From: Argopecten irradians
Taxonomy: Eukaryota > Mollusca > Bivalvia > Pectinida > Pectinidae
Length of the DNA: 64,000 bases
Direction of reading: 5' to 3'
Assembly (NCBI RefSeq): GCF_041381155.1
Contig: NC_091138.1
Coordinates: 33,659,604-33,723,603, forward strand
Shown: one piece after another, positions 700 to 60,817 of the stretch
Layout of the letters: each line of letters starts with the position of its first letter
How positions within the stretch are numbered: the stretch's first letter is position 1
Made by a program: the position numbers and the translations under genes
Notes under the pieces: generated by a model
The model's input: the letters and a program-made list of their open reading frames with translations, nothing else
Told to the model about the DNA's origin: nothing
The model's database searches: none

Positions 700-906
700 T
701 TAAACTGATGGCACGAACTCATCCCAGATTCTCTTAGCAAGTGCCGCACCAAAATTTTGGTTAGAGTTGTCGGCTAACTGAAGAGTTGGTGATGTCTCCG
801 TATAAGATCTTTGTGTTCCTGCGATGCTATACGTAACTGTAAATGGCATTACAAAATGCATGTTGTATTGTTTAAGGTCGACTTCATCCTTTTTATTGTA
901 AGACAC
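700..906 (-). CDS. Gene C exon 6: C-terminal domain
   Basis: The acceptor is CATATTAG|GTG, phase 0, and the exon ends at TAA (702-700). It opens VSYNKKDEVD, like VAFMRKDVV (A) and LSYQRKDMI (B). It then carries FTVTYSIAGTQRSYTETSPT and an NQNFGAALAKRIWDEF helix equivalent to NQALGEELAREIWD in gene A. The pattern of a beta-rich stretch followed by a terminal helix resembles the C-terminus of vertebrate clusterin. Confidence 0.88.
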   Translation of the reverse strand: MSYNKKDEVDLKQYNMHFVMPFTVTYSIAGTQRSYTETSPTLQLADNSNQNFGAALAKRIWDEFVPSV

Positions 907-3900
907 CTAATATGAAAAAAATAATATCAAATTAAAAATAATCAACAGCTGACAATGTATATAGTTTGGCACAATCAAATCTAAAGAAACGTTAAGTTTG
1001 AACGGGTTAACAAATATTTGTATTAACGATGGTTGCTATATAAACTGACTTAGAGCAATTCGCATAATAATACACAAAATAGACAATATAAGGATTTCTA
1101 GCGGGAAAAAAATCCACCATAAAATAAGTTTTTTGCAACATATTTAATAGCATAAAAAGCGTTTAACTGTATAGTAATGGACAAAGTACAAATCAATTCA
1201 AACCTCCAATTTGCTATCTAGAAAGGGCTGAACATAAACTCCACAACGACAAAGAAAATTGCGTTACTGTAACTTTTGTAAAATATCAGTCGTTTATATT
1301 TATACAACAATAAAATATACTGTACATACATTACACTATTATTGAGTTTTGATGTTTCGCTGATCATAAGACTTTGCCAAATAAAAAGAAAGGTTTATTG
1401 CCATTTCCGTTTTTTCCCTATCTTTTTCTAACAATATTAAAGTAATTGTAAAAAATATATTTGTGAAATGGCGTTGTAATATCAAGTTATGTGATGAAAA
1501 GATATTACTTTGACATATCCCATGACAAAACGGATCATTATGAATTAAGTTTTAAAATGCAAGGTTATCATCCTAGAATTTTTTTAGAGCATTTTAAGAG
1601 AAAACAGTAGACTTATGTTACCTGGGTGACGATAGGTGTTTTTGCTTTGGCCACATTAATGACAGACGTTGTAACGGCGTATTGTGCTATGATTGCGGCT
1701 GCCTTGTCACCACAGACTGGATACAATGAAACAAAATAAGTTTATATCATTAAAATTCATAAGTGTGTACTTATTTGCGCTCAGTTTCACTTTCTCCACC
1801 AACGTGTATTTTGTATATCTTTCCGGTCTTGTTAATACAAGTTTTTTGAAAATTTCGATATAACTTATTACCGTACAGCCGATTTTTTAGCGGGTTGAGA
1901 TGTTCGCGATTTGAACTTAAGACGTGGAAATCAAATTTAATCTGTTTAAACTTTTTCGCGAATCTGGCTATCCGGGTATGTAGGATTCAACATTTTCCCG
2001 ATATTTCGCGTAATACATTTTCGCGATCGTAGCAATGCTCTGCGAAATTGCGAAATTATCATCCACGCGAGAATGATACACAGAAAAAAAGAAATAAATA
2101 CATGCATATCTTTCGAGATCTTATACTTCCAGTAGCTTGATAATTTTGATATTATGGGTAATGAAAATAAACACAAATACATTAGAATCCGTTTTTAACA
2201 ATAAATCATTATCCAGACATATAAAGATATTCACTCAAATAATTTTTCGTTTATTTGCATGCATACTTATTTAATACTGATTACACTATCGGCACTTTTC
2301 GTAAACGATAATATACCTCGGGAGTTAAAGGCGGAGTTTACGGAAAATGCCGACTGACTTAAGTCACTTCCGGCTTAAACTTACCGGCTCTCCAAATTTC
2401 AGTCGCAGAATTTTTTGTGTCATCGACTTTATCACACGAAGGACATTGTGACGCTGCTCTCCTTCGACGACCGAAAAGATCTGAAATGGTACAGTAAAAA
2501 TATAGCACAGGGGGAATACACTTCTAACATATTAACATTAAACTACAAAACCGACAAAAACACTATCGTTTGCATAGATGTATTCTATATTGATAAATTG
2601 TATGGTTCTTTTTATCATATCAATAAATCGCACTTGATTTTCTCCTTGGATGATTTTAAATATGTAATTAAAACAATGCATTTCATCAGCTCGAAATCAT
2701 ATTGCCAAATTGCAACAGTTTACAAAATCTTAATAGACATTTGAACATTTTAGCAGCCATGGTTATGTATTGACGTGGATTAAAGTCAGTGTACCCAAAG
2801 GAAAACCACCAACTGCCACACATGGAATTTGAAGCACAATGAGACTTCGAATTATACATGATGGAAAAATGGCGGACGATTACTCGACCATATCTACATA
2901 TGTGTTGTATGTCCTTTATTGTGAAATATATTATATACTAGACTGATAATTCCTAAAGTCTTTTAGATAAAAGGAACAAAAATATGAAAATAATATCAAT
3001 CTAAGTATTTGGAATGTGATTTCTTTTTTACCTTTGAATCCATTTGGTATCGTTTTGGAGAAAAAATTTCCGATGGGTTTTCCAACCTTATCTTTGAAGA
3101 ACTCGCCTACTTTCTTTCCGGCGTTAGGAATCGTATTCACGAAGAATTTCTTCACCTCTTTTACACCTTGTTTGCCAAGGTGAGGAACCTTCTTAATCAA
3201 ATTCGGAAATTTCTTCACTAGACCAGTGCGGAGTGCTATTCCAAGTGGCGGTGGCAGTAGGCCTATTACGAATTTGTCAACGGGGAACTTTCCACCACCA
3301 GATCCACCGCTTGATTGTTGGTGCCTGTAGAAAGTATAATAAAACCTATCTTAACAACCACCTGCTTAATAACGACCTCCTCTGTATAAAGACCACCAAC
3401 TCTACATATAAAATCAATTTTAAGGTCCCCATATCGCCATTTTAAAAACAATTTTACCCGTGTACAATGATGTTGGGCGGTATTTATAGTCATTTTTGAC
3501 AGTATAAAAACCAAAGCCACTGATGTCGGATATAGACTAGGAATGCTAGTGTATTCTGTAATACTTATATATAGATAAATAAAATTACAATGACTTATTG
3601 TTAAATAAGTCCCTAGATGTCACAGTGGTGGCAACTCACTGATAATGCAATATTGTTTTTTAGTATCGAATGTGTCAGGTTGCTCTTTTACTAATCAGCT
3701 GTATGACGCCTAATCGAGATCTCCGGTTCTGAGCGTAGGCGCACTACATGCACGTACGCGAACGCGTTACATTTTAAAGGTATAAACACATACTCAAATG
3801 TACCGTGGTCAATTTTCCTATGCATATTAAAGCATTCCACTAGTGATAAAAGTTGTGAGGAACTACAATAGTACAGGTTTTTACCAAAAAAAAAACACAC

Positions 3901-6236
3901 ACAAAAAAAAAAACGAGGAAAAAAAAAACCCAAGTATCTTGTAATCCAAATATTATCACAGCTCTTCGATAATTTTATCGATGGCATGTGTATTAATTCA
4001 GATACAGCTTCCGATTCCACGTCCTTATACGGTGTACGAAGTGTGTCAACACTAAGGACTGGAGATGTTGTTGATGTGTAGCGATGCGCAGTGCCAAGTG
4101 AAACAAAACAGCATTTTTCAAAGTTCTTTGAAACTGGCACTATATATAACGCACTTTAAAAATTGCGTTATTTTTACAAAGTGGATCGTAACGTTGGTAT
4201 GACTATATAACGAAATTAAATTTGCTATCTCAAAATACATGTAGATTACACAATTGCATTTATGAAAACATCTGGAGTTCGACCGACCAGAATCAACAGA
4301 CGATTTAAGTTTCAAGTATCAAATGCATGTGCGTAACGTCAAGCTTACAATGGTACAGAGAGTTCTAATCCCATACAAATCTGTCGTCATAAAGATATAT
4401 AGACATACCTGAAGAACCATAATTGTTTATCATAAATACCTTTTAGCACAAGCAACACACTGATCCAAGGTATCGTTGTACTTTTTCTGACATACAGGCT
4501 GTACTTCGGCATAGGCGGCTTCTAGGGCTTCGAATTCCGAACTGAATGCTTCGGCACTGAATTCCGTAAAGATGTATCCGTTAGTTCGTCCACTTCTGTG
4601 TATATGAAAGTGACAAAAAATATAATTGACTGATGTCACATACATCAAAAATCATTCAACTACTATCATGTTTTGGATGCATTAAATGTGTCGTTATGCT
4701 TTTTCAATAAATGAAAAACTTGATTATGTTGATGTAACAAAAAAATACAAATAAATAATGAAGTAAACTTCATTTTTCGAATGCAATTCATGTCCTTTCC
4801 CAGCCATCGTACATTATCGAGTCGACGCTTCTTAAAATCGCGTATAAATGTCAAATTAACACAAAAACAATATGAAATAATTTACTTTGTTTTTGGTGAA
4901 TGCGCAATCAGTACTTCATTCCATATAGGACATAGTGGTACGAAATGTTTTTGGGATGCAATTAATTATTTTTAATATTCTTATCTTGGAGTTAAACTAG
5001 GAGCTCAAACTTTTCAATAGTTGTTATGGTGTAAAGTAAGTAACTTTTGTAACTGAAGGAAAATTCTAAAACGTCTGCTCCTGTTTTTGATAGACAAAAA
5101 TATCATTTGTCAGCGGTGGAGCATCTTTAATATTATTAGACTTTCCACTGTCATCGTCCGATATTGGTATTAGAATTGTAACTTTTGTGATTATTAAACT
5201 TCAAAAATGTACTTATCAATGGTTTCTCCTGAAATGCATGAATAAGCATTTGATCGGTTCTACTTCTTGATTAACCATATCCGCTAAAAGAAGTGTTTTG
5301 ATTGGTTCATTATTTAAACTCGTGTTTCCTTGATTAACCATATCCGCTTAAACAAGAGTTTTGATTGGTTCATCATTTAAAAACATGTCTTCTTGATTAA
5401 CCATATCCGCTAAAACAAGTGTTTTGATTGGTTCATCATTTAAAAGCATGTCTTCTTGATTAACCATATCCGCTAAAACAAGTGTTTTGAATGGTTCATC
5501 ATTTAAACTCATTTGGGTATATAATCCGATCATGAAAGCAACTTGATTGGCTTATTGTTAACGTCTTACAGCATTGTGATTTGTTTACGGATTCAAGTTA
5601 AAAAATACAAAAAAAAATGTTATTCACGATGATATTTTAAAAAATCCACCTTGTACTTAAAGTTTAAGTTGCCATTTAGCTATTTGTCAAAATACTTTTT
5701 TTCTTGGAGAATGTTGTTATCCAGAGTATATTCGTTATATTTCCACCTTGAAATAGCGGCCGATGATATCAAAATCCTCACCGACCTATTCCGCTTTCAT
5801 ATGTGATGATCATTTATGTTTTACATACAGTTCTAGATTAATTCAAAGTTGTTTTTGCTTACTTTTTAAAAACTCATATCTATTTAACATTTTTACAGTG
5901 CTAAAGGTTAATGTAAAAATAAATACTTCTGCAGATATAATTTCATTTAAACTTACATAAAGCGTAAAGGCTTTTAAGAACTTTTACAAAGCAAAATACA
6001 TTTTTTTCTGTGCTTTTGAATGATTTTCTCACCAATCCTTATAACAAAAAATAGCATGTCAAAATTATCATTCAGTTATGGCACATATACCATTAATGCA
6101 ATATAATGAAACATGAGATTAATATGCACAATTTGACAACAACTACAATTTAAGAGCACTTACTCGCTTGGTTTGTGACCGCCGTTGATAGCCCCACGTT
6201 GAGCAGGAACAGGTAGAGAAAACCTTGTAGAATCAT
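700..6236 (-). CDS. Clusterin-like secreted protein, gene C (six exons, frame break in exon 2)
   Basis: Exons in transcript order are 6236-6164, 4595-4440, 3324-3032, 2480-2385, 1716-1622 and 906-700, each bounded by AG/GT on the minus strand. The product would be about 305 residues: a signal peptide, a C-x10-C-x2-C segment, a short Gly/Pro-rich then Lys/Phe-rich region with repeats such as FFVNTIPNAGKKVGE, a polybasic GRRRR, CPSC, VCG, and a C-terminal exon ending WDEFVPSV. Intron phases match genes A and B exactly. The oddity is exon 2, which is 156 nt against 154 in A and B: its 5' part aligns in one frame (K-V-D-E-L) and its cysteine part in another. The gene is therefore either a recent pseudogene, carries a consensus error, or uses a splice form I cannot see. 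The clusterin relation is inferred from motif layout; no search was run. Confidence 0.8.
907..1621. other. Intron 5 of gene C
   Basis: AT-rich, no repeat or coding signal recognised. Confidence 0.6.
1622..1716 (-). CDS. Gene C exon 5: V-C-G exon
   Basis: The acceptor is TATCCAG|TC and the donor ACCCAG|GTAACA, phase 1 in and 0 out. It reads CGDKAAAIIAQYAVTTSV and ends TPIVTQ, aligning with CGQAYVSNVAQYRK...PVITK in gene A and CGAKHN...MPIITK in gene B. It holds the sixth cysteine of the mature protein. Confidence 0.85.
2385..2480 (-). CDS. Gene C exon 4: polybasic site and CPSC
   Basis: The acceptor is ATTTCAG|AT and the donor GCCG|GTAAGT, phases 1 to 1. It reads LFGRRRRAASQCPSCDKVDD, aligning with exon 4 of A and B. 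RRRR fits furin-type convertases and sits just before the C-x2-C pair. The plus-strand ORF overlapping this exon (2415-2744) is a shadow. Confidence 0.88.
3032..3324 (-). CDS. Gene C exon 3: variable region, cationic repeats
   Basis: The acceptor is CTACAG|G (phase 2 in) and the donor AAAG|GTAAAA (phase 1 out). The 97 codons begin with a Ser/Gly-rich linker (QQSSGGSGGGK), then a hydrophobic Pro-rich stretch (GLLPPPLGIALRTG), then Lys/Phe-rich repeats of the form FF-x-x-T-I-P-N-x-G-K-K-V-G. It has no cysteine. It is the shortest version of the variable exon and shares the FFxKTIP motif with gene A. Confidence 0.85.
3325..4439. other. Intron 2 of gene C
   Basis: Contains a 149-codon minus-strand ORF (4140-3691) with a Ser/Thr-rich part (SLGTAHRYTSTTSPV). 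No splice sites in the right phase were found, so it is not included in the gene. Confidence 0.5.
4440..4595 (-). CDS. Gene C exon 2: C-x10-C-x2-C segment (frameshifted)
   Basis: The acceptor is CACAG at 4600-4596 and the donor AAAAG|GTATTT. The 3' part reads VCQKKYNDTLDQCVACAK, with cysteine spacing identical to genes A and B and an N-D-T glycosylation sequon. The 5' part, entered in phase 1 from exon 1, reads K-V-D-E-L, matching K-A-E-E-L (A) and K-A-R-E-L (B), but that frame hits TAG before the cysteines. The first Cys codon is 103 nt from the exon start here, 101 nt in A and B. Confidence 0.75.
4875..5137. mobile_element. MITE-2, truncated copy
   Basis: Shares 'tgcgcaatcagtacttcatt' through 'gtcagcggtggagcatcttta' with the full copies but lacks the left end. 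In intron 1 of gene C. Confidence 0.7.
5255..5520. repeat. 63-bp minisatellite in intron 1 of gene C
   Basis: About four copies of a unit containing 'cttgattaaccatatccgct'. The period is a multiple of three, so the minus strand stays open with a 21-residue unit (NDEPIKTLVLADMVNQED). No splice sites were seen, so probably not coding. Confidence 0.85.
6164..6236 (-). CDS. Gene C exon 1: signal peptide
   Basis: It starts at ATG (6236-6234) and encodes MILQGFLYLFLLNVGLSTA followed by VTNQA, a typical signal peptide with cleavage likely after LSTA. The donor is A|GTAAGTGC, phase 1. This start is favoured because a TATA box lies about 60 bp upstream and the other two paralogues also open with a signal-peptide exon ending in phase 1. 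Confidence 0.85.
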
Positions 6237-6295
6237 TTTGTCTTCTGTTTCCAGTCTGATCCGGATGTCTGTGGTGTTTGAACCATCCGACTTCA

Positions 6296-6303
6296 CTTTT
6301 ATA
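6296..6303 (-). promoter_or_regulatory. TATA box of gene C
   Basis: TATAAAAG on the minus strand, 60 bp upstream of the exon 1 ATG, a spacing that would leave a short 5' UTR. It is the clearest core promoter element among the three paralogues. Confidence 0.6.
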
Positions 6304-7284
6304 GCCTTTTGTTCAAAATAGGCTAGGTATCTAATTTTCTCAACCCACGTCAATCACGGACAGATTCATAGAACAAAACCACGTGACCAGAACAATTCTA
6401 GGAAGAAAAATGATACGCGCGTCATTCATAATTAATCTTTTACGTACCTTTTTGTTTTTCTAGTTCAAACCAGAATCGGTAACACGTGTTAATGATATAT
6501 ACGATTAATTAAATGTTATTACATTTTCGGCTTCCAAATCAACAATTCTGTGAAACATAATATTGTCAAGGCTTCAGTTCTGAGAAAATACGTGGCTTGC
6601 ATTTACATATACTTCCCATTAAACATACACACTGTCACTTGAATGCCAATTAGTCTTGTAGTTTATATTAAATTGTATGCATATGTGTTTTTAAAAATAT
6701 TTATGCACTTCTTTCCTATTTGAGGCTAGTTACGAATGTCTGTGGGTGCAGTTTCACATTTCATAGTTGTTTATACATAAATGATATATCTTTCCCAGAT
6801 TGTTGAATTCCCTATAGAAAGCGTTATATAATAATAAATATGTAATACTAGTACATATAGTAAAGTCTCAACCGGAATGATACATTTTGTGTGTAGTGTA
6901 AATATAAATCTATCCTGATGTGTGAATTCCCTTAACCACCTCATCGTTTTGGTACATTTTTTGATATATCCGAAAAAATGTCCTTTTACCAAGCCGTCGA
7001 AGTGTGATGCCTTGTATCAGATTATGTCAAAACACTCCTTGTGACAGTTTCAAAAGAATCCACGTTCTCTTGGTGCTTTGACTACCTAAAGTGACGAAGC
7101 GCCTCATCATTTGGTCGTGTATTCTCGATACGCAATGGGTTACTATCACTGACGTTATATCCATCTCTGGACTATCTCATTGTAAAACTGGAGGCAGTTC
7201 AGGAGGAAAAAAACTGACCAAATTCCTTTTCTTATGATTTAAAAAGCCCTCTGAACAGTCCATTTTCGAAAGACTTCTTTTTAG
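6304..7284. other. Upstream of gene C, no feature seen
   Basis: AT-rich; beyond the TATA box nothing recognisable. Confidence 0.5.
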
Positions 7285-7352
7285 TGTCTGTTTTTTTTAT
7301 TATTATTATTTATTAACGTCCTATTAACAGCCAAGTTCATGTAAGGCCAGAC
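7285..7352. repeat. Fragment of a bivalve-type repeat tail
   Basis: (TTA)n followed by 'cgtcctattaacagccaagttcatgtaaggcca', a motif I recall as a common 3' part of mollusc repeats. Fragment only. Confidence 0.45.
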
Positions 7353-7539
7353 ATTAATAATTACTATTAAATCAGTAATCGTTATCATGTATAAATGACA
7401 ACAGTTTTTCAATTAATTGCATGTGATCAGTACTCATTAAAATTATGTTTACATGTAATCGATTACAGATAAAAAAAGGTGTGTAATCATGATTATTTCT
7501 TTGATTACTTTATGATTATCGGATACTTTCAAATTCCGT

Positions 7540-7725
7540 CTTTGCATATTACAGAGTTAGCTCCCTTTCGGGTAGGTATCGATTGTTACGTCATTATTTT
7601 GTGAGCGCAATTCACGTCATTTTCTCCGAAAAGTATGACGTTACGGTCGAAAACACATGACGTCACAATCAATACCAACCCGCAAGGGCAGATAACTCTG
7701 TAATATGCAAATACGGAATATGTGC
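7540..7725. mobile_element. MITE-1, palindromic element
   Basis: Long imperfect palindrome: 'tttgcatattacagagttagctccctttcgggtaggtat' pairs with the inverted 'ataccaacccgcaagggcagataactctgtaatatgcaaa'. Contains several TGACGTCA-like sites. Other copies at 13760-13930, 36815-36915 (partial) and 38925-39085. Confidence 0.75.
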
Positions 7726-8040
7726 TTTCAGTGTACAACGTTTATTCGTATTAATGTTAATAAATTTGGATAAGATGTGATATGACTTCTTTTATGTTCA
7801 TTCTATATCAATACAGTAGTATTCATAAGTAATCTTCCTGTAATCATGATTATTCATAGTAAAGTAATCGAAAGTAATTACAGAAAAAACATTTTTGTAA
7901 CCATTCTGTAATCGATTGCTTAAAACTGAAGTAATCGTAATTTACTCGATTACATTTTAAAGTAATCGATTCCATGTCATGAATACGGTGTGCAGTGTGT
8001 ATGAAGTTCATGGTGCGTGTTTTGGGAGACTGCGGTACAT

Positions 8041-8395
8041 TCATGTCGTGTCATGCCGATGACACCAAGCGACACCCCTCACCCGGTCACATTATACTGA
8101 CAAAGGGCGAACCATACTCGTTCCACTCCCCGTATGCTGGGTGCTAAGCAGGAGCAGAACCACTTTTATAGACTGTGTCTCGGCCAGGGAACGGAACCCA
8201 GAGCCTTCCTCACAGGGGCGAGCGCTCAACAGAAAGCCAAAATTAAGGTGGTGTCAAGGGAGACGTTAGGAAGTAGATAGTTAGTTTGGAAGAAGAGAAT
8301 CGATACTATCCTAAATTTAGTCGTCTTTTACGACCATGCAATAGGGGCAGCGAGTACAATCCTAACGCCATACCTGAAGTCATATAGCTTTGGCG
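8041..8395 (-). mobile_element. tRNA-like SINE copy
   Basis: On the minus strand it reads 'gcccctattgcatggtcg' then GTTGAGCGCTCGCCCCTGTG and GGGTTCCGTTCCC, a tRNA B-box-like motif. Same family as 63690-64000 in opposite orientation. Confidence 0.65.
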
Positions 8396-8789
8396 TGATC
8401 TGTCTGTTGATTTTTCTAATGTCCTCATGGTGATTTCACCACTATCGTAAACTCCTTTTTACAAATTAAAAAAAAATGAATACAATCATACATGATATTG
8501 ACTCTTCGAAATACAGAAATGTTCGACTGGTGGAAAACAACACACGTTTCGCAGTTCCTACGATACGCCCAATGAAACATAAACTCATGTAGCTGCTCTT
8601 AGCTGAAAAGACATAAATTCTGAAGATATCGAAAAAAAGCGTTTCTCACCGGAACACCATTGGGAGTCGTACTTTATTTTGTTAATCTCAGTTAGTTTGT
8701 TTTTATAACAAAAGTTGTTGTACATTAAGTCAAACTAAACTTAATGAGAATTTAACGATAAATCTACGAAAATCTTATCTTGTTAACTA

Positions 8790-9050
8790 CTCTTAAGGTT
8801 TAACAACCTGTTTAAACTAGTGATTTTTGGTATGCCCATGGTGTAAGTAAAATCGAATTCGGTCAAACCAGCGATCCTACTACATACTATAAACACTAGT
8901 AAACATAATGATATGGTTATTTGGTTACAGCAATGTGTACTGAACCCTGTGGACATGCAAAACTGAAATGTACATTTTTTTGTATATTTATCCAAAATTT
9001 ACAAGCAATACATCAACATACTGATTTAAACGGGGTCTTAAACCTTAGTA
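8790..9050. repeat. Dispersed repeat R3, copy 1
   Basis: The minus strand reads GTTTGACCGAATTCGATTTTAC and shares 'gtggacatgcaaaactgaaatgtacatttt' with about 61985-62300; a diverged copy is at 24365-24650. Confidence 0.6.
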
Positions 9051-9514
9051 GATTTGTGTCAAAGGCACTATTTGCGGATCGTCATGGTAAAAGTTAGTCA
9101 TAATCAAATGTTTAAATGGAAACAAAAAGTAATCATCAAATGTCACCAAACCCGAATGAAAAAACACAATGGCAATACTAATGTTAATGCGAACAAGTCG
9201 ATTTTTCTCTAGAGTATCTGAATTTTTAATTCAATTTTTAATTAATTACACACAGCTTGCCAATTGTGATTGATGTTGCCACTGTCAGCATGTAATCACA
9301 TTAAAGTCATCAAACTCTCAGAGCTATTGTCACACTATATACACTCCTACATAATACATTTTATTAATGGTTTTTATGTAAATCAAATAACAGGTGCTAC
9401 CGACATATATGCAAATATACTTTTATCATTGCAAATGACAATATGAAAATTGAGAGAAAAATTACCTACTGATGTATTGGAGCGACAAACTGGTGCGTGA
9501 TCAAAACGTGTATG

Positions 9515-9602
9515 TCAGCATCATCATCATCATCATCATATCATCATCATCATCACCATCATCATCATCACAACCATCATCATCATCATCACCATCATCA
9601 CC

Positions 9603-9636
<34 letters not shown>

Positions 9637-9660
9637 TCATCATATCATGTCATCATAATG
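9515..9660. repeat. (CAT)n microsatellite
   Basis: Long interrupted run of 'catcatcat' with CAC variants, followed at about 9735-9785 by 'gaggaggagga'. The poly-Ser ORF here is an artefact of this repeat. Confidence 0.95.
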
Positions 9661-10279
9661 CTTATGATGAAGATATGATGGTTTTGATGATATGATGAAA
9701 ATGATTGTAATGTTTTTGAAGATCTTTCAAAAGATGATGATGAGGAGGAGGAGAGGAGGAGGAGGATGAAGAGGAGGATGATGACACTACTACACATTAT
9801 TTCATATCTGTAATTTTTTTTAAACTTAACACTGCCGACTTTACATGATAATGATAACATGGTTCATGAATAAACTATAAAGTGGTACATTCATTTCTAT
9901 CAGTTGTTCAAAATATTTTTTGTTGATTTTTATAAAAATGTTGTCGCTCATAATGTTCTGTTCAAGGGTCAACAAACTTGATATATCTGGTTTGACCGCA
10001 CTTAATCCTTGACATGGTAATATTATAAACGTGTACATCTTTGTACATGTATTTATATACTTATTAACGTCTCAAACGCTTTAACATAAATTATTAACAT
10101 TGTTATTTTTTAACATAATCCATGCATATTAATCATATTATTTGAATTATTAGAGCAATGCCATAAAAATGTACTCAATATCACATCAATTTACAGTGAC
10201 ATGGTTATAAGTACAGGGACAACAATACAACTACAGCTGTTATGTATGACGTTAACCTTGTCGATAAAGTTATCCAATA

Positions 10280-11375
10280 AGTATAATTTAAGTTCATTTA
10301 AGTAAACAATACGAATTACTCATTAAGTTCATTTAAGTAAACAATACGAATAACTCATTAAGTTCATTTAAGTAAACAATAAGAATAACTCATTTAGTTC
10401 ATTTAAGCAAACAATACGAATAACTCATTAAGTTCATTTAAGCAAACAATACGAATTACTCATTAAGTTCATTTAAGTAAACAATACGAATTACTCATTA
10501 AGTTCATTTAAGTAAACAATACGAATTACTCATTAAGTTCATTTAAGCAAACAATACGAATTACTCATTAAGTTCATTTAAGTAAACAATACGAATTAAT
10601 TATTCAGTTCATTTAAATATACTCCACCGCCGACAGAGCATAAATGACATTCATCATTTGAACAAAACATGGTGTTTAATCATGTACATATATGTCTAAT
10701 TAACACAGAAAATATTATAAAATAATTTATTTAGCCTATGGTCCATGCGCAATCAGTACTTCATTCAACATAGGATATAGTGCCACGGATTTTTTTCGGG
10801 ATACAATTAATTATTTTTTATATTTCTAACTTAAAGTAAAATTAGAAGTTCAAATTTTTCAATGTTGGTAATGGTGTAAAGTAAATAACTTTTACAATTG
10901 AAGAAAAATACTAAATCGTCTGCTCCTTTTTTTGATAGTGAAAAAATACCAATTGTCAGCGGTGGAGCATCTTTAAGTAAACAATACGAATTAATCATTA
11001 ATTTCATTTAAGTATACAATATGAATTACTCACTAAGTTCATTTAAGTAAACAATATGAATTACTCATTAATTCCATTTAAGTAAACAATACGAATTACT
11101 CATTAAGTTCATTTAAGTAAACAATACGAATTGCTCATCAATTTCATTTAAGTAAACAATACGAATTCCGCATAAAGTTCATTAAAGTAAACAATACGAA
11201 TTACTCATTAATTTCATTTAAGTAAACAATACGAATTAATCATTAAGTTCATTTAAGTAAACAATACGAATAAATCATTAAGTTCATTTAAGTAAACAAT
11301 ACGAATAAATCATTAAGTTCATTTTAGTAAACAATACGAATTAATTATTAAGTTCATTTTAGTAAATAATCAGCA
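10280..11375. repeat. 35-bp minisatellite split by a TIR element
   Basis: Many copies of 'aagttcatttaagtaaacaatacgaattactcatt' in two blocks (10280-10620 and about 10978-11375) on either side of a MITE-2 copy. Confidence 0.9.
10618..10978. mobile_element. MITE-2 copy inserted in the minisatellite
   Basis: Ends 'ctccaccgccgacaga' and 'tgtcagcggtggag' are inverted repeats; a TTTAA-like motif flanks it. About 360 bp, no coding capacity. Full copy also at 38344-38704, 5'-truncated copy at 4875-5137. Confidence 0.75.
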
Positions 11376-13759
11376 GTACGTTTTGATCCCGGATTTGTAT
11401 TCTACACTCAGAGAACTTTTGTAAGTAGATTTTAGTGTCGTTTAACTTCATTGTTCTAAGAATCGACTGAGCACCTTACATAGATGAGTTAGTGCACCCA
11501 AAGATCCTTAAGATCTTCACTATCCCTGCTGTTTGACTAAATATAATTTAAATTACACAACCGCACAGTATGCAGGTCGTTATAAATTACTCACACCAAT
11601 TGCCTAATTATCATACGTGAAATAATGCGTTGTGGAAACGAGTAATATGTGTATTGTTGAAGCAATGAATGTCTTCTGCAGGTCCACATGACATCTAAAG
11701 AAGTGTGATATTATCAAATAAACCAGAGAAAAGGAGAACACATGTAAACTGTGAAACTAGTAATCTTTTAAGGTATTTTTTTCAAAATCCTCATTAAATG
11801 CTTAGCCGACAGAAAGTTTTCTAAAAGTGATAGGTGACATTTTTCTTGGCCCATTGTACTGGCTCGTTAACTTGTCTATGATATGTACAGCTGACAATTT
11901 AAGTTAAAATAATTGGTGTCGGGTTAATCTATCAAATGGTGTGCAAATGCCCTCTGTACATCCGCCTTTGTCTCTAAGCAAAGTTTACGACGACATTTTT
12001 TGTTTTATGTTATCTAGTTGTCCGAATAATGATAAAAGTTTTTTGGAAAATAAGACAGCTAGAAAAAAACTTCAATTATCACGTTACTGGCCCATCCAGC
12101 CATGCCATATCGTAAGACACATGTGTCATAACACTATTGTGACGTCACATGTAGTTTTGACGTCATAATCTCGCATGATTGTCTCAGTAAAAGTTTATAT
12201 AGAGACGAAATCTAAAATTTTACTACATTTATCTTTTTAAAAGTTTTGTGATAAATATAATATTACACTCATAACTATGTGAAATGAAACTTATCAAACT
12301 CGTTAAATAATCTGAAATGCTATTCGCTTAAAGGCTCGTGGCATATAAAATTATTGAACTCGTATATCATATCGCCACTAATGTAAGATCTTCAATTTAT
12401 TAAATAGATATACACAGATGAAAAATACGAAACCCATCATTTTCTAACTTATTATCCTCTTCCAATCGTGTAAATACTTACACCCAATATGCTTCAAGAA
12501 ATATTACAGCAAAAAATCTTATTCTCGATTATCGATTCTCTTCTACATTATCATTTTTGCATTCTATCTTAAAAATTTAACCCTTTATATTATAATATGA
12601 AGCCCATTATGCTTCTTTTAAGTCAGCTCCTTCCCAATTAGTCCTTATTCGGCAGTAACTTTATCAGTACCCTTAAATGGCTATTAAATGGACATCGATT
12701 CATCGTGAACAAACCTTGTAAATTTGTACGCAATTTACCTCATTATGTATTTGAGTGTTCAAGTCATTTTCTTACTTATCATGGAAAGTTTTTTTCGACA
12801 AAAAATATAGAAGTTGTTTCTTTTTGTGTCAACTTTTTTTTCTTTGGAAGTGATTTGTAGAATATTTAAACATCTAGTGGTACAAGGTGAAGATATGTAT
12901 ATACTTTGAAGATATATTTACCTTTTTAAGTTCTACATTTAATATTGAGTTTGCTGTATCAATGTAAAGCTCTTTAGATTGTGTGTTTTTCATAACTGAA
13001 TTTCAATTTGTATTTCGATGATAGGATATAAAGTCTAAACCTAACTATTGCCTGATCCATTTGTTTTGATGTAGTATTAAGTTTAAAGTCGTAGAAAAAC
13101 GATTATTAGTCGATGATGTCTTATTTGAATTATAACACAGTATGACGCCATATATGCTGTGACGTCTCCTTTGGTTACTTTTTTGGGTTTTGTATTGGTA
13201 ATGATGCAAATGTTAAATACTATTTAAATTTTTAGTATCCTTTACTTGTGAAATGTTACGGGAGGCAACTCGTGCTGATCATCTAGAAAAAACAAACAAG
13301 ACTTTAAAACGCCATTGTTAGAGTGAGCAAACAGTCTTTTTTGAATAGACAATAATGTGGTATGCTTTCCTTGAAATTTTCGTAAATAAAAACTTGATAA
13401 ACCCATTTTTTAAAGAAAACACACAAAGGCCTCATTTGTTCAAACTTTATTGTCACTATGTACAAAAGGTATATAAATAAATTCTTATACATGAAATATG
13501 GACCATTGACCTACACTATTGATACACTTGCATGGATTTTATTTTAGCATTAGCTTCATTACAGTCAATATCAACAAGATTGTTCCGTACTCCTATTGGT
13601 ACGATATGAATCCTAGTCACCAAACAGCACAAAATATAGAGGAACAATCAAGGGGAATTCAAACAAGGTCTACGATATTGTTAAACGTGGAAGAAACAGG
13701 ATGATATTTTTGTTTTGAAATCAATGCGTAGGTCGATATGTTTATGTGTATTCTGTATA
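11376..13759. other. Intergenic region between genes C and B
   Basis: Apart from the duplicated flank at 11970-12130, no coding or repeat feature recognised. Confidence 0.5.
11970..12130. repeat. Duplicated 3' flank, gene B copy
   Basis: Partner of positions 1-170, about 2.2 kb beyond the gene B stop; the greater distance here is partly due to a later TIR element at 13760. Confidence 0.75.
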
Positions 13760-14353: not shown

Positions 14354-14560
14354 TCACAAAGTAGTTTCGAAAAACGATTGCCACAGCTCGCTAGCCAATT
14401 CCTCTCCCAGTGCCTGATTTGAGTTGACTAAGTCCAGAGTTTTATTGACCTGTAGCGTCCTTATGACTCCACCAAGGTTGTACGTTATCTGGAATGAGGA
14501 CACTTGGGCGGAGCCTCTCCTTCGTCGTTGTCCAATCATATCCTTCCTCTGGTACGACAA
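14354..14560 (-). CDS. Gene B exon 6: C-terminal domain
   Basis: The acceptor GTCACACCAG|TTG was chosen so that LSYQRKDMI aligns with VAFMRKDVV of gene A. It contains an extra GQRRRRGSAQ, then FQITYNLGGVIRTLQVNKT and LDLVNSNQALGEELASELW, nearly identical in pattern to gene A. The second polybasic site would separate the beta-rich C-terminal domain if cleaved. Confidence 0.9.
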   Translation of the reverse strand: MSYQRKDMIGQRRRRGSAQVSSFQITYNLGGVIRTLQVNKTLDLVNSNQALGEELASELWQSFFETTL

Positions 14561-16833: not shown

Positions 16834-16868
<35 letters not shown>

Positions 16869-28990: not shown

Positions 28991-29004
28991 CACAGCCAAT
29001 ATTT

Positions 29005-48166: not shown

Positions 48167-48169
48167 TCC

Positions 48170-49733: not shown

Positions 49734-49734
49734 A

Positions 49735-49816
49735 CTTATAAATTCTTAAAAGAGCATCATGCTTTAACATAGATTTGATTTTCCTTAGGATATTATTATT
49801 ATTATTATTATTATTT

Positions 49817-49855
<39 letters not shown>

Positions 49856-53559: not shown

Positions 53560-53748
53560 CTATATTAAGTCCCATATTTCCCTAGCTAGCTCCTCTCCCA
53601 AAGCCTGGTTTGGATCCAAGAGATCCAGTGTATTGTCCGATTTGAGGATTTCCGTTGTTCTACCATTAGTGTATGTGACTTCGAATGGCGATGCGGATGC
53701 TATGCCTTCAAGTAGTTTATTAACAACATCTTTACGCATGAAAGCCAC
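53560..53748 (-). CDS. Gene A exon 6: C-terminal domain
   Basis: The acceptor is CATTTCAG|GTG, phase 0, and the exon stops at TAG. It contains PFEVTYTNGRTTEILKSDN and LDLLDPNQALGEELAREIWD. The order (beta-rich segment, then a terminal amphipathic helix) resembles the conserved end of clusterin. Of the three paralogues, A and B are the closest pair in this exon. Confidence 0.9.
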   Translation of the reverse strand: MAFMRKDVVNKLLEGIASASPFEVTYTNGRTTEILKSDNTLDLLDPNQALGEELAREIWDLI

Positions 53749-56700
53749 CTGAAATGGAAAAATGTTCATTACAAAATCAAAACATAGCTAATGATAGGCA
53801 ATGAATGAACAAGGACGAGGTGGAGATGATGTATAGAGATTTTGCTTGCTGCCCGATCCAAATTTAATCTTTGGATGAATGACCGAGAAATGTACGTTTT
53901 TGAAGAGAACAACAAAACTTCCCAGTGAGATACTCAAGAGAGTCTATTGCTTTGGTCACAATGATCGGGCGGTATCCGGGGATAGATGGTATTCGGGGTA
54001 CACCGGTGGTTTTACCGTTTTCCCGACATCGGACAACACAGGTAAAAAATTGTCACACATCATTTACATAAAAAGGAGGCCGTGTGGTAATCAACAGGAA
54101 GTGAATATTGACCGAAAATATAATGCTAATCGGCCGATAATCATACGATGTCCAGGCGATAAGCAGCCTATTCACCGGACATCGTACGAATATCGCCCGA
54201 GTATCTTACGGACAACGAACGATAGTTTTTACCAGGCAAATACCGTTCGATTCCGGCCGAATATCGGATGATACTGAAAGATGCGTGAAAGATATGTGGC
54301 CGATTATGAACATCTACATGACATTGGAGAGATTTTAAGTTGGAGTTAAAACTCTTTGGTCACCTCCCCGATTATGCCCGAAAGCCTCGGCCACCGGCCG
54401 GCCATGTCTGGTGTCCGGCCGGGATCCAGACCAAAATAACTATAAGCCATGCCAGGAGTACATCCTAAGCCTAATCGGAAGGGGTTGTGATCAAAGCATA
54501 AGTTAGCATATATCATTTTCGAGATTTGAGTACAACTGTAAGGTAATTTGAGGTGCTTCTGCACTAAACAATACAATAGATGCAGTTTAACCTCGACCAC
54601 CTTGACCTACTTTTAAAGTGTTTCTCAATTAAAGTATGTATCATGATTCAAAATGTACGACCTATGACATGTTTTACACGTGGGCTGAAAATAAAAGTAA
54701 TAAAAGTGTCTTTTCTCACAGCTATCGTTTCCATTAATGCATTCATTTGTGATATATATGTCAGCTGTGAGTGATTGTCCTTGCACAGGAATAAAATGAC
54801 GTATAAAATAGATGAATATGCAAAACATGGGGGGTAGGTTTTAGAATGTGTCAATTATTTTCTTTTGCTAAACGCCCCTTCAGCGTTGTATTATGTGGGT
54901 TTGCACTTTGTTAAGGATATGATCCTCTGAGAAGTCAAAATTTTCTTCTATTAAACTCTTTTTCTCATATAAATTTTTGGAAATAGAAGTTCATACCATG
55001 AAAGAAAATGGAAGAAAAAACATGTGTCCGTGTGCTTGTTTTTGAGCTATTGTCACTCAAAGATACCTAGCTGACAAAATATTGGATTTTATTGCAATTT
55101 TGCCGTTTTGACCATACACACAAAAGATTAAAGTCATAATTTCCTAATGAGATGTTCGATATCTATGGATGTTTGTAGAATTTATTTTCCAGTAGTCCTA
55201 TTTAAAAATATACCAGTTTTGATTAATAAAATTAATATATTTTCTCAGAATAACAACATATGCTACCCCTACCCCTTAATTTTGAACTACAAAATGCACC
55301 ATTTTCAGCCATTTTTGCCAAATTTAAACCTTTATAGAAAAAGTTCTAGTATTAAACTTTTGTTGATATTTTGCATATCAATAGGGGGTTGTTCTCTCTA
55401 AATCAGGCAAAAAATAGGGGTCCGTGTGCTTACTTTTTTTGCCCCATTTGAATATTTGTTATTTTTCAGTATTTTAGAGTAAAAAATGAAAGTGCTCAAA
55501 TAACCATTAAATGTAAAATAAAGTGACAAAAGTGTATCATTTCACACATTCATGATCAATATTTCATTTACCGCGAACCTAGAAAAGATTTACAGCAAAA
55601 ATTAGCTCGATACAGCTAAAAATACTGGCGCAGTGATGATTTAAGTATAAACAATTTCAGTAAAATTTTGTAAAACTGTGGCTCTACTCAAAGCAAAAAA
55701 AAAGGCACGATTTCAAAATGGCCGCCAAATGGGCCATTTCTTAAAATCCCTGCATAAAAAAACTACTAAAAATAAAGATTTAATTTTTGGACAAAATTTG
55801 CAACTGTCAACTTGCTACATATATTGATAAATTGTATTTGAAAATCTCAAAGTTTCTTTGATTTTCGTCGAAACGAGACTTCAACGAGACTTAAATCTCA
55901 GAAGAATACATCATTAATATTTAAGAGAACTCATTGTGAGATTTGTACTCTTTGTCCAGTTAATATAAGCTATCTGGACATAAAAACGTTTTTGATTAAA
56001 AACTAAGAAACAATGTAACTTTCAAAATCAATATTTAAAAAAGGAAAATTCATTGCAAAAAAAAACGTTTTTTTCATTGTCGATGACATATCAACATGAT
56101 ATATGTATTAAAAGATATATATGTGCCACAACTGGATGAAAACATGTTATTTTTCGGGAATCTATTGAAAACTATAAGGTTTGATAAATTAATCCGTGAA
56201 AATAATTCAAATGGACAGACAAACATGCATGATTCCTTATAAACGTTAGTTACAACAGAGGATTTATGCACTTTAATGGAAAACAGAAAACCAAAAATCA
56301 TTTTACATTTACTGAATTGTAAAGTGTGAAATGATTATGTAGACCACACCTTGGTTTCATGGTCCACTGAACTGTATACGGAATCAAAATGATTTTTGCA
56401 GTACTGTGCAAAACAATTTTCATTTCTTATTTGTACTTGTAGAATAAAACCCTATGTATTGTAATTATCGTAATTCTCAAAATGTTGGAAACGTTTGCTG
56501 CTGAATAACATATTAAAAGTTCTTTTTGATTCGTAAATATGAAAAATACGGCACATATTAACATAGGGATATTTCATAGTATCCGCTCCGAATGACACCA
56601 CCTCATTTTATTAATACTACAGTGATACCGCTTATTATTTAGAAAAACCTGTATTATATTTATCACTGACAGTAAACTTACTTACCTTAGTAATGACAGG

Positions 56701-59700
56701 TTTTTTGTCGACGTGGATCAAGTTATTTATGGTTGCCATTTTCCTGTATTGCGCAACATTGCTGACGTAAGCTTGTCCGCAAACTTTCAATAACAATGAG
56801 CAATTGTCAGACCGAAAATACATAAACACAGACAGAAAACTTCTTTGTAAGCATAAAATAAGAATCTCGATAAATTTTGTATTAATTACTTATTTATTAT
56901 TAATATTACTATTTTTTTCATTTCAAATGTTTATGTACGGATATAAAGTTATTTTCGGTTTTAATACACATCTATAGAAAAATAAAATTATTCTATCGAG
57001 GTCATAAATGAAAAAAAATCGTATCAAATTATTGATTTAATACAATTTATTTTCTGCATTATTTGCTTCTTAATTGTCAATTGGAGTGTCGAATGGAAGT
57101 GATTCGGATCTTGAAAATGATATACTGAAGATTAAACATAAATAAAAGATGATATATAAAATATGACTACTAGAAATCATGTTTACATCTTCTTTTTTCA
57201 AACCCTGACCAAACAGTTTGTTGGTAACATACGATTTATCTACTTTACCATTACCTAATATAACTATTACCTCGGCATAACCTTATCAATCACAATAGAG
57301 GTCATTGGAATATGCATATATTTGAAATAGAAACTCTTTTATAAATTGCCACGTGAAGGCCGAAGAAGTGAATAATTAACGCGCTCCTTTTTCTGGGGCG
57401 ACAATATGTTTAAAACCTCACCTGAACGCATGATATCTACTGACGTCATCGTATCAACGTCAACCTGCTCACACGCGGGACACTGGGAAGTCTGTCGTCT
57501 GCGCCTCCCCCTAAATATACCTTTCAAAAAACAAATTCCAATAAAGTGGCATTTATGTAATCCAATGGACCATTTTTGCTTAATGTCCATTTAGAATTTT
57601 AATATAATCAATATCAGCATCAAGGAAATGAAAAATAAACGCAGGATGACAGTGTGACACACTAAAGGGCACGCCTGCAATGACATTAAAGGGTTCCTTG
57701 ACTTGTGCAATAATTTCAGATTATTTCGAAATACTACCCATAATATATACATGTATACAGATGAGTCAACAATCTCGTTTAAGTCACATACTTTTATGGT
57801 AATAAGAACCGTTTGTATAGTGTCTCAGTCCCGGTGATAAAAGTCTCATTCCTATGTGTTTGAAAAAAAACACACCAAAAGTTCCTTAAAAACAATACTA
57901 ACGTGAAGAATTGATATTGATGTTCTAAGATGAGACTACAATACCAAACAAATACATGTTTCCCTCCGTAATCTATATTAACAGAGAAGAATCCTTTCAC
58001 TGTTTTGCCGTCTGGCGCCGTGATAGTCAACTAACGCTCGATAATAAGGACGACGGCGAGAAACATAATAAAACCCGCGTTTAGAAACTAATATTTAGTA
58101 CATTTCATTTTGCGCTTTTTGTTCTCCGCAAACGTGTTCCACGTTTAAAATCTTCATGTGTTGTTTGAATAACGATATTTGCGTTAACACAGCAAAACAA
58201 TGAAATACTGAGAACGAATAATGAGCGCAAATACGAGGGGCCATCTTTGATATTGTTATATACTCAAATTAAATTTAAATGTTTTAATGTGATATTCATA
58301 AATGTACATCAATGATCTGTCTATGATTTATAGCAACAGCCAACAGATACGTAAAAAATTAAAACATCAATGATCTGTCTATGATTTATAGCAACAGATA
58401 CGTAAAAAATTAAAACATCAATGATCTGTCTATGATTTATAGCAACAGATACGTAAAAAATAAAAACATCAATGATCTGTCTATGATTTATAGCAACAGA
58501 TACGTAAAAAATAAAAACATCAATGATCTGTCTATGATTTATAGCAACAGATACGTAAAAAATAAAAACATAAGCTCATCCTCAAATTGGAGAGATTTAA
58601 AAAATGTGTTTTTTTCTTCAATATGCACTACATACTGATACTCATATAAATTAAGAAAATAGATAAAATAGTAATTTATCATAATATAATATATATCTGA
58701 TAAAGAAATTCTAAACACCAATACTTACTTGGGATCGTCTTTTTGAAGAAGGTTTCAACTTTCTTTCCAACTTTAGGAACTGTCTTCTTGAAGAAATGTT
58801 TGACCTGCTTCCCTGTTTTTGGTACGGTCTTCTTGAAAAAGGTATTAAGATTTTTTCCAACGTCTTTTCCTGCCCTTGGAAGAGTTTTTGTGAAGAATCT
58901 ATCCACATGTCCTCCAACTTTTTTTCCTGTGGTCGGAATCGTGTCTTTGAAAAATATATTCAAATGTTTTCCTACCTTTTTCCCGGTTTTTGGGACCGTC
59001 TTTTTAAAGAACGTTTCAAGGTGATTACCCACTGATTTCCCTAACTTAGGGAGCGTTCTAGTGAAAAATACCTCCATTTCCCTTTTGATGTTCTTACCAA
59101 CTTTTGGGATGGTCCCCTTGAAAAAGGTTTCCAGATTACTGCCGACATCTTTAACAACACTCGGAATAGTTTTTCCAATAACTGTTCCAATAGGTTTCCT
59201 AGTCACATCACCAAAGGTCTTTGGATCTATCAGTATCAGAAGTTCATCGATTCCGCCTTGATGAGGTTCGGGGATTTTTTGACTGAAACAGAAAGACCAG
59301 ACATCACGAGAATCGACTGCATAACAAACGCGTTATCCAAACTCTTATTCATTTACTGTTGTAAACGAAAAATACTTTCGCGTTCCACTAACGCTTGCAA
59401 ATTTCATTTCGCAATCAAATAGGCTCAACTTCGCATATAAATATATATTTAACGTATACCGAATAGTATTTTTAATTGGTTTTGTTATTCGAAGGTTAAA
59501 CTCTGCCTCTTTGTTCTTAAATTAGATTTAGATATTAAGCAAATTAACGATGGGGGAGAGATTACTGAACATGTAAAAAGGGACTATGGAACCTAGTGTT
59601 CTAAATCGGCGAGCATATATTAAAAAACTAAATTTTACGAAGTTTATGGGGTTTTTCTTGGACAACTTCCAAGAGGTTCATGTACTGCACTTACTTAGAG

Positions 59701-60817
59701 ACTTATTATTTATTATTTATATTTTGGTATATATACAAAAGGTATGACACGTTGATAAATCATTAGACTGTATTCACTAACTTACAACGAATTATCTAAG
59801 CTAGATCGTACTAAACTTTTTAATTGGATTTTTGGAGCAAAGACTACAATAATAGATAATACAAAGGACTATTTTTAAGTTCAATTGTAGTTCAACTGTC
59901 AGAATTTGTTACCGTAAAAATCACTGAAATTATACTGTAAACTGTTGTCAAAATAAAGTATGTACATTATTGACAAGTATATCGAATTATTCTCTAGTAA
60001 AAATGTGAAAATTTTGAATATGTTAAATTTCTTGCTATAGACAAAAGAAAACTCTGCTCACAAGTAACTAAATGAAAAAAATGTTCTTATCTACATAGTT
60101 ATTTGTCATCAGTATCAATGTTGCTTCTGATATGAGAACACGTCTAATATACATATGTAGCTCATCAGAATATTGACTGAAATATTGGCCTCCGCCATTT
60201 TATGCTTGTCCCTGTCATGTTACTAATGAAAACAGTTGTACTGTTCCCGAAATAACAAACAAATGGTAAACATTTGTAAAACTTGTGGATCTTTACTCAA
60301 TATTATAGCAAGAATAAATTTATGAAATTCGACCAGTCACGACACATCATAACACTATACCTATTTCTACATGTTTGACACGCTTCATAGGTTTTGTTGA
60401 GTTTGGCCTCGCATTCAATGGCTTGTCGTTCCACCAGCTCTCTTAGGGCCGGAGCCTCGCGTTCAATCTTCTCGTGAAACGCTAGCGACACTATCAAATT
60501 TAATTCCTCGGCTTCTGTTGTTTAAGAGATAACAAATCGGTCAATGCAGACATACGTGTATATTAAATTCGAGATAATTCTAAGTAAAATAAGGATAATT
60601 TTAGCTTTACATCTTTTCAAGATAAGACTAAGAATTCTTAAGTGAAATGAAGATAGATAGTTTTATCTTAAATAAATATACATGCATTATATATATGCAT
60701 GAATGGATGTCAGATTATGTACATTTCCATCTACTCACTGCGTTTGTTCTCGATTACTTCAGCTTGGCAGATTATAACCTCCAAGAAAACGAGAATTATA
60801 CTTGAATACAACAACAT
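53560..60817 (-). CDS. Clusterin-like secreted protein with cationic 19-residue repeats, gene A (six exons)
   Basis: Exons in transcript order are 60817-60739, 60514-60361, 59282-58729, 57520-57422, 56783-56686 and 53748-53560, totalling 1173 nt in one open frame (390 residues plus stop). The layout is: signal peptide; C61, C72, C75; eight tandem FFKKT-I/V-P-K-x-G-K-x-V-G-x-H-L units at about 90-262; RRRR at 268-271; CPAC at 276-279; C297; C-terminal domain 329-390. Splice phases match B and C at all five introns. The repeat region is strongly basic and each unit could form an amphipathic helix, which would suit membrane, polyanion or microbial surface binding; that role is inferred. The clusterin relation rests on cysteine spacing, the convertase-like site and the C-terminal motif. 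This is the cleanest of the three genes. Confidence 0.88.
53749..56079. other. Intron 5 of gene A (part)
   Basis: A 130-codon plus ORF (53879-54271) lies in a locally GC-richer patch with inverted repeats ('gatgtccaggcga', 'ccggacatcgtacg'), more likely repeat-derived than a gene. Confidence 0.45.
56080..56565. repeat. Dispersed repeat R4, uninterrupted copy
   Basis: Lies in intron 5 of gene A and serves as the empty-site reference for the Ngaro-like insertion. Confidence 0.7.
56686..56783 (-). CDS. Gene A exon 5: V-C-G exon
   Basis: The acceptor is ATTGAAAG|TT and the donor ACTAAG|GTAAGT, 98 nt. It reads CGQAYVSNVAQYRKMATI and ends KKPVITK, aligning with the same exon in B and C. Confidence 0.87.
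57422..57520 (-). CDS. Gene A exon 4: polybasic site and CPAC
   Basis: The acceptor is TTGAAAG|GT and the donor TTCAG|GTGAGG, phases 1 to 1. It reads IFRGRRRRQTSQCPACEQVD. Phase agreement with exon 3 shows that no exon is needed between them. Confidence 0.87.
57521..58299. other. Intron 3 of gene A (part)
   Basis: Contains a protein-like segment TITAPDGKTVKGFFSVNID (about 58025-57970) without usable splice sites; possibly an exon remnant. Confidence 0.4.
58300..58575. repeat. 51-bp minisatellite in intron 3 of gene A
   Basis: Five copies of 'aacatcaatgatctgtctatgatttatagcaacagatacgtaaaaaataaa'. The period is divisible by three, giving an open plus frame that is not a gene. It ends about 150 bp from the repeat exon. 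Confidence 0.92.
58729..59282 (-). CDS. Gene A exon 3: tandem cationic repeats
   Basis: The acceptor is TGTTTCAG|T and the donor CCCAA|GTAAGT, 184 codons. After a short acidic lead (GGIDELLILIDPKTFGDV) come eight repeats, mostly 19 residues, the last two 15, for example FFKKTVPKTGKKVGKHLNI. The conserved Phe-Phe, Thr, Pro, Gly-Lys and Val-Gly positions suggest Pro-broken amphipathic helices. There are no cysteines. Open antisense frames here come from the repetitive composition. Confidence 0.92.
59283..60360. other. Intron 2 of gene A
   Basis: AT-rich; nothing recognised. Confidence 0.55.
60361..60514 (-). CDS. Gene A exon 2: C-x10-C-x2-C segment
   Basis: The acceptor is AACAACAG|AA and the donor AAATAG|GTATAG. 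It begins AEELNLIVSLAFHEKIERE and ends ECEAKLNKTYEACQTCRN, with an N-K-T sequon beside the cysteines. Vertebrate clusterin also has C-x10-C-x2-C after an N-terminal helical stretch. Confidence 0.88.
60739..60817 (-). CDS. Gene A exon 1: signal peptide
   Basis: ATG at 60817-60815 opens MLLYSSIILVFLEVIICQA followed by EVIENKR; the donor is CGCA|GTGAGTAG, phase 1. Length (79 nt) and phase equal those of gene B exon 1. A weak TTTAAAA lies about 40 bp upstream as a possible TATA substitute. Confidence 0.85.

Follow-up and report, generated by a model that had tools for sequence, protein, structure and literature searches.

Clusterin (apolipoprotein J, PF01093) is among the closest described systems to the genes reported here. 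In the sections available of a 2025 structure paper, it is presented as a conserved vertebrate glycoprotein that is phylogenetically younger than the small heat-shock proteins, with disulfides in antiparallel order and with two disordered, phenylalanine-rich but lysine-poor tails beside the furin cut that carry its chaperone, receptor and lipid activities (PMC12527946). The present analysis concerns an array of related genes in the bay scallop Argopecten irradians, three of which lie on the minus strand of a stretch of 64,000 nucleotides (NC_091138.1, 33,659,604 to 33,723,603), hereafter the window; all positions refer to it, and negative positions lie outside it. Based on the gene structure, cysteines, cleavage motif and repeats described below, we propose that the array encodes a family of secreted scallop proteins that is tandemly arranged and changes fast, in which a two-chain, disulfide-joined body would display a working tail encoded by exon 3. 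We regard this reading as standing about level with the chance that it is wrong.

A tandem array with one exon plan

Three genes of six exons each (G1, G2 and G3) were rebuilt from the raw sequence of the window. They belong to an array of at least five related genes (G1-G5) that occupy one strand over about 82 kb, with G4 and G5 downstream of the window. The intron phase plan 1,2,1,1,0 is common to all five. Splice sites and phases 2,1,1,0 hold at introns 2-5 in G1, G2 and G3, and phase 1 at intron 1 was seen in G1, in G2 (with a putative exon 1) and in G4, the intact copy of G3. A preliminary description of the window had reported three six-exon genes with identical intron phases and homologous exons 1, 2, 4, 5 and 6. 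The shared phases are confirmed, and so are three genes with homologous exons, but the count falls short of the array and the list of exons was incomplete, since exon 3 is related too. Self-BLASTP recovered exon 2 between G1 and G2 (7e-6), exon 3 between G1 and G2 (1e-15) and G1 and G3 (3e-7), exon 4 between G1 and G3 (4e-8), exon 5 between G1 and G2 (2e-5) and exon 6 between G1 and G2 (1e-15) and G2 and G3 (6e-7). The remaining pairs, such as those with G3 exon 2, gave no self-BLASTP match, and their homology was assigned by position and motif.

The encoded proteins share a simple anatomy. After a hydrophobic, signal-like N-terminus, exon 2 supplies C-x10-C-x2-C, exon 4 supplies both R-R-R-R and C-x2-C, and exon 5 opens with V-C-G. 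Both the C-x10-C-x2-C and the C-x2-C elements occur in all five genes and in seven named scallop proteins; the six cysteines (C1-C6) and RRRR are invariant in 7/7 of these named proteins and are also present in G2, G3 and G5. Exon 3 contains no cysteine in the seven named proteins, G2 or G5, and there are therefore six cysteines per chain after removal of the signal peptide, split three and three by a single polybasic convertase motif. An N-x-T sequon lies inside C-x10-C in all seven named proteins and in G5, though not in G2. In G1, about 40 mature residues precede the first cysteine and about 30 separate the last cysteine from exon 6.

Spliced G1 (60817..53560) encodes 390 residues that are 100% identical to the NCBI A. 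irradians protein P0001, an 'uncharacterized protein'. This identity to an NCBI gene model supports the splicing of G1. Exon 1 (60739..60817) carries the ATG and the signal peptide, is identical to P0001 and ends in phase 1, while exon 2 (60361..60514, phase 1 to 2) encodes a helical-looking segment with C-x10-C-x2-C. Exon 3 (58729..59282, phase 2 to 1) consists of 19-residue amphipathic repeats rich in phenylalanine and lysine. The convertase motif RRRR and CPAC lie in exon 4 (57422..57520, phase 1 to 1), VCG and a further helical-looking segment in exon 5 (56686..56783, phase 1 to 0), and the conserved C-terminal segment and stop in exon 6 (53560..53748).

G2 is much longer, with a protein of approximately 1,303 amino acids if its putative exon 1 (25729..25807) is included. 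This exon would encode a signal-like peptide starting at 25807 or 25798 and ends in a phase 1 donor; it was the sole open reading frame (ORF) in window 22416-32000 to pass a scan for a signal-like ORF with a phase-1 donor. Exon 2 (22263..22416) carries C-x10-C-x2-C, exon 3 (18544..21812) a long mucin-like stretch rich in threonine, serine and proline followed by family units, exon 4 (17227..17331) SRRRR and PCLTC, exon 5 (15370..15467) VCG, and exon 6 (14354..14560) the stop. Outside the window, G5 (-15818..-20949) encodes 385 amino acids; its splice sites are canonical and its phases 1,2,1,1,0. Exon profiles built from G1, G2 and G4-type sequences matched its exons 2, 4 and 6 with E values of 7e-5, 2e-7 and 3e-7; exon 5 was unmatched and identified by eye. 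Only G5 is an independent find of these profiles. Within its intron 5 (approximately -19310 to -20430), a segment of about 52 bp comprising the end of exon 5 and the splice donor is tandemly repeated many times, so that near-identical 5' splice sites follow one after another.

Profiles of exons 2, 4, 5 and 6 found no sixth member within 130 kb on either side of the window. Across the whole genome, G1 exon 6 found array members only (G1 and G2), G1 exon 2 found G1 alone, and G5 exon 6 found G5, G1 and two weak off-array matches (E 0.97 and 4.1), while 6 of the 42 matches to exon 3 lay inside the array. These single-exon searches missed known array members, and their counts are lower bounds. Three off-array places, C13 (exon 3, E = 0.008), C6 (exon 3, E from 0.04) and C5 near 451 kb (G5 exon 6, E ~1), were rejected as tandem simple repeats, and two further off-array rows for exon 3, at E ~5e-4, have stops inside.

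Duplication and divergence among scallops

A direct tandem duplication pairs window 12131..439 with 158..-10819, at 98.07% identity over 7,306 bp, with four further pieces at 92-96%. The copy at 439..12131 (minus strand, 11-12 kb) holds G3, and the other (-10819..158, mostly outside the window) holds G4. G3 is a recent tandem copy of the intact G4, which lies at -5036..-10561 and corresponds to NCBI protein P0005. The similarity between positions 1-170 and 11970-12130, which had been described as duplicated 3' flanks, marks the upstream edge of the two duplication copies. Arrays of 35-bp units also lie within the duplicated block, at window 10149-11508.

The six exons of G3 are readily recognised: exon 1 (6164..6236) encodes a signal peptide and is identical to that of G4, exon 2 (4440..4595) carries C-x10-C-x2-C, exon 3 (3032..3324) is a short repeat exon, exon 4 (2385..2480) carries GRRRR and QCPSC, exon 5 (1622..1716) VCG, and exon 6 (700..906) the stop. 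Exon 2, however, measures 156 nt against 157 nt in G4, a one-base frameshift that breaks the frame near its start; read on from exon 1, the shifted frame meets a stop within exon 2 (judged by eye). G3 is probably a pseudogene, an allele or an assembly error, and the G3/G4 pair could also stem from two haplotypes that were wrongly assembled as duplicates. The NCBI cluster of P0005 is a single sequence, with no separate protein there for G3. In exons 1-5 the two genes show 3 differences in about 710 aligned positions (two exon 4 bases fall outside the local alignment), whereas in exon 6 (700-906 versus -10561..-10355) they differ at 12 of 207 nt, with the amino acids of nine codons changed and two silent changes. 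Selection, conversion from another copy and decay of G3 are all candidate causes of this divergence.

Named relatives were found in four scallop species only, A. irradians included. Because the protein search depends on exact five-residue words and had neither G2 nor G5 among its queries, absence outside scallops is weak evidence. G1 orthologs are 78% (Pecten maximus), 69% (Mizuhopecten yessoensis) and 64% (Ylistrum balloti) identical to G1. By exon, exons 2, 5 and 6 are the best conserved (73-94%), followed by exons 3 and 4 (58-78%), with exon 1 least conserved (42-65%). P. maximus has two G4-type proteins, 95% identical to one another and about 49% to G4, on the same contig as its G1; the G4-type pairs of the two species would reflect either separate duplications or concerted change. 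Between A. irradians and Pecten, identity is about 49% for the G4 type against 78-79% for G1. A tree of nine family cores had long branches and left five of six forks open, and no branching order was drawn from it.

Judged from its sequence, the five-gene array represents an undescribed scallop family of predicted secreted proteins. The preliminary description knew of no described invertebrate family with this architecture, and in the literature searched we likewise found no description of the scallop family; the locus names of the orthologs were not found in the papers searched. Searches combining clusterin with mollusc or scallop, and 'clusterin-like' with invertebrates, revealed no apparent invertebrate clusterin, as judged mostly from listings. 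In the portions available, the clusterin mention in an oyster paper concerns clusterin-associated protein 1 (PMC9892467), and that in a shellfish-toxin review concerns human toxicology (PMC7472309).

The exon 3 tail and a two-chain working model

Exon 3 forms the variable part of these proteins. In G1 it comprises approximately nine units of the form T-[IVL]-P-K-x-G-K-x-V-x3-L-x2-F-F-x-K; its autocorrelation peaks lie at 19, 38 and 57 residues, and the 19-residue period is also seen in the Mizuhopecten ortholog. Exon 3 of G4 is short and uses the same wording as the G1 units. G2 has 836 amino acids at 47% threonine, serine and proline, followed by 253 amino acids with related units and a peak at 50, while the 165 residues of G5 form a nearly neutral sequence. 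Over exon 3, G1 orthologs carry net charges of +9 to +26 and G4-type proteins of +13 to +18, and phenylalanine content is 8-11% in the G1 and G4 types, 4.2% in G5 and 1.7% in G2. In all five sequences tested, the mean helical moment of exon 3 exceeded that of all 200 shuffles.

Apolipoprotein-type repeat proteins likewise carry amphipathic units in tandem, each joined to the next at a proline. The scallop unit differs in its 19-residue length with T-[IVL]-P, found in G1 only, and in being joined to a cysteine plan and cut motif of its own; the scallop queries gave no Pfam match to an apolipoprotein-type family. Similar wording, FF-T-K-T-[LI]-P, appeared in P0008, an unnamed metagenome protein that by eye resembles a phage tape-measure protein and was found in a profile search at E = 5.7e-6. 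P0008 aligned over 20% of the query and has no such cysteine plan, and the shared wording probably reflects convergence on amphipathic repeats.

These features suggest a working model. The precursor would consist of a signal-like N-terminus, a short, helical-looking first chain with C-x10-C-x2-C, a variable tail supplied by a single exon, a polybasic convertase motif, and a second chain with C-x2-C, a third cysteine and the conserved C-terminal segment. On folding, three disulfides may form between the halves (C1-C6, C2-C5 and C3-C4), antiparallel as in clusterin, and the precursor would then be cut at RRRR in the Golgi. A two-chain, disulfide-joined body would remain, from whose first chain the exon 3 tail would extend freely; this tail is probably the working surface. 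The cationic, phenylalanine-rich and amphipathic tail of G1, shorter in G3 and G4, appears suited to binding membranes, lipid or hydrophobic protein surfaces that have become exposed; that of G2 is lengthened by its mucin-like stretch, and that of G5 is amphipathic and nearly uncharged. Duplication followed by rebuilding of the tail could in this way produce proteins with one body and different binding tails. This two-chain model is independent of whether the likeness to clusterin reflects homology or convergence, which are themselves mutually exclusive.

Clusterin kinship or convergence, and sequence around the genes

The preliminary description took these genes to be divergent clusterin relatives or a convergent family built on the same plan. 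The order of elements and part of the cysteine spacing agree with that claim, whereas common descent is not supported by the sequence tests. As in clusterin, the scallop proteins are predicted to be secreted and carry a furin-type motif mid-protein, the first chain containing C-x10-C-x2-C and the second C-x2-C. A phenylalanine-bearing stretch precedes the cut in the G1 and G4 types, the C-terminal segment could be read by eye as strand-strand-helix, and the N-x-T sequon inside C-x10-C is shared by clusterin. Clusterin, an ATP-independent chaperone that also binds lipid, is cut into two chains at its central convertase site, and the RRRR motif, as read from the sequence, is present in all scallop members. 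Among 18 clusterins the invariant cysteines stand at spacings of x10, x2, x4 and x7 in the first chain and x9, x6, x2 and x7 in the second. Clusterin has ten cysteines forming five interchain disulfides, against six in the scallop proteins; with the specific clusterin pairings taken as background, the scallop six could correspond to the inner three of the five pairs, with both partners of the outer two absent. This concordance of spacing is the best argument for kinship with clusterin, and the family may work like clusterin, though homology is unproven. The two also differ in that the scallop tail is lysine-rich and repeated, or mucin-like, and in that no sequence similarity is detectable beyond the cysteines.

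Several results weigh against the two-chain working model. With net charges of +1 and -3, the G2 and G5 tails cannot be called cationic, and none of the G4, G2 and G5 tails shows the 19-residue period. Lysine and arginine make up 14-22% of the G1 and G4 tails, versus the lysine-poor tails of clusterin. In the body, C5 and C6 are separated by 17 residues (15 in G2) compared with 7 in clusterin, and the scallop segments look too short, by length, for the ~85-Angstrom three-helix coiled coil of clusterin. No scallop query matched any Pfam family at the curated cut-off. Finally, a hidden Markov model (HMM) of 33 clusterins, run with filters off, gave the family pieces at most 0.1 bits and decoys up to 5.1; hmmsearch reported scores for 8 of the 10 pieces and for 315 of the 500 decoys.

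Other tests of kinship gave a similar answer. The preliminary description had proposed profile searches against clusterin as a check; HMMER comparison with PF01093 and clusterin produced no match, the family scoring no better than shuffled decoys, and profile-profile comparison was not significant. With HMMER filters on, none of 11 scallop queries, used as whole proteins or pieces, brought up PF01093 at E <= 10 (P0007 was left out). In the reverse direction, family HMMs scored 1.9 bits at best against the 33 clusterins, in a run without decoys. Profile-profile alignment with hhalign used human clusterin alone or sets of 100, 33 or 18 clusterins as targets. Of 486 matches, 120 were taken; 99 of these, of 430-480 amino acids, were combined with the human protein, and thinning at 82% identity left 33, while the 18 were picked by hand from the 120. 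P0008 was left out of the family sets. E values were 0.04-0.22 for local and 0.25-0.71 for global alignment, with 3-26 of 60 column shuffles scoring equally well or better. Locally, the second chain scored 16.8 (shuffle mean 12.6; 3 of 60 shuffles as high; reversed profile 13.5) and the C-terminal domain 13.2 (shuffle mean 10.0; 4 of 60 as high). Globally, the second chain scored 2.5 against 5.5 for its reversed profile, and 26 of 60 shuffles reached the observed score; the C-terminal domain scored 6.0 against 5.6, and 9 of 60 shuffles did so. Sequence searches of the PDB with the scallop proteins gave either no match or four unrelated weak ones. A PF01093 search of the scallop genome found nothing, but 14 controls were also unmatched, making it uninformative; the amniote clusterin P0128 likewise found nothing there, in a search without a positive control. 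Among the matches collected, the protein P0116 is encoded on a 1,570-base contig filed as Salmonella enterica and is 58% identical to human clusterin; it is probably animal DNA in a bacterial assembly.

On this evidence we lean slightly towards a convergent, pectinid-specific family, in which a disulfide-stapled helical hairpin combined with a polybasic cleavage motif would share its cysteine spacing with clusterin by chance. Neither Pfam nor HMMER showed sequence kinship, the named relatives are confined to scallops, and C-x2-C pairs are common in helical hairpins. The six-frame translation of a 324-kb region (387,268 residues) contains the C-x10-C-x2-C pattern 21 times, five of these being the array genes; the match with clusterin is therefore uncommon but not decisive, and could be chance. 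Harder to accommodate is that spacing, order and cleavage motif all match at once, and the word-limited protein search could have missed relatives in other molluscs. Were convergence correct, this would still be an undescribed, duplicating family of secreted proteins with unusual amphipathic repeats in farmed scallops.

A different question is what the tail acts upon. Cationic amphipathic repeats could make these proteins immune or reproductive effectors against microbial or gamete membranes, with an arms race driving duplication and rapid change, but we consider this rather unlikely. It would account for tandem duplication in A. irradians and the two close copies in Pecten, for the low identity of the G4 type between species and for the concentration of G3/G4 differences in exon 6. 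Against it, the changes in G3 may be neutral if that gene is a pseudogene, no RRRR-type sites lie between the repeats, and the tails of G5 and G2 lack the required charge.

We think it improbable that the family is a true distant homolog of clusterin, in a protostome lineage that would have kept only the disulfide domain and the C-terminal alpha/beta domain and rebuilt its tail. The identical order of elements, with C-x10-C-x2-C before and C-x2-C after the convertase motif, and the shared sequon argue for it. When ungapped family segments were slid along the 33 clusterins, they landed at the corresponding cysteines (at 102, 14.3 versus 1.8 for the next; at 302, 12.4 versus 4.2), and hhalign placed the second-chain C-x2-C and the C-terminal helix of the last domain where expected. 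The sliding score, however, is carried by the cysteines: with these held fixed, the flanking columns gave p = 0.12-0.39 (both tests used 6 of 9 family members), and the C-terminal 24 columns, when slid, missed their clusterin counterpart. In hhalign, the first chain picked the second-chain C-x2-C of clusterin, whole-family and exon 6 comparisons picked unrelated places, and the reversed C-terminal profile outscored the real one locally (15.1 versus 13.2). The absence of any HMMER score above decoys, and of a clusterin-like match in two scallop genome searches that had no working positive control, counts in the same direction. If homology nevertheless held, a protostome relative would push the origin of clusterin back to early bilaterians, and natural tail variants on one body would offer a direct test of the tail-as-chaperone model. 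The fuller version, a protostome branch of the clusterin fold whose ancient core of disulfide and alpha/beta domains persists in scallops while the exon 3 tail is repeatedly rebuilt, as amphipathic repeats or mucin, to change what is captured, seems to us slightly more doubtful still.

Between G2 and G1, at window 46500-49750, blocks of 200-300 bp with 99-100% identity recur about 1,554-1,596 bp apart. An ORF at 50.6-50.9 kb looks reverse transcriptase-like by eye, but seven ORFs there and elsewhere gave no Pfam match at E <= 0.01. Two further arrays, at window 28950-29570 and 36250-36770, are built on the word CCTGAAATT.ACC and its complement.

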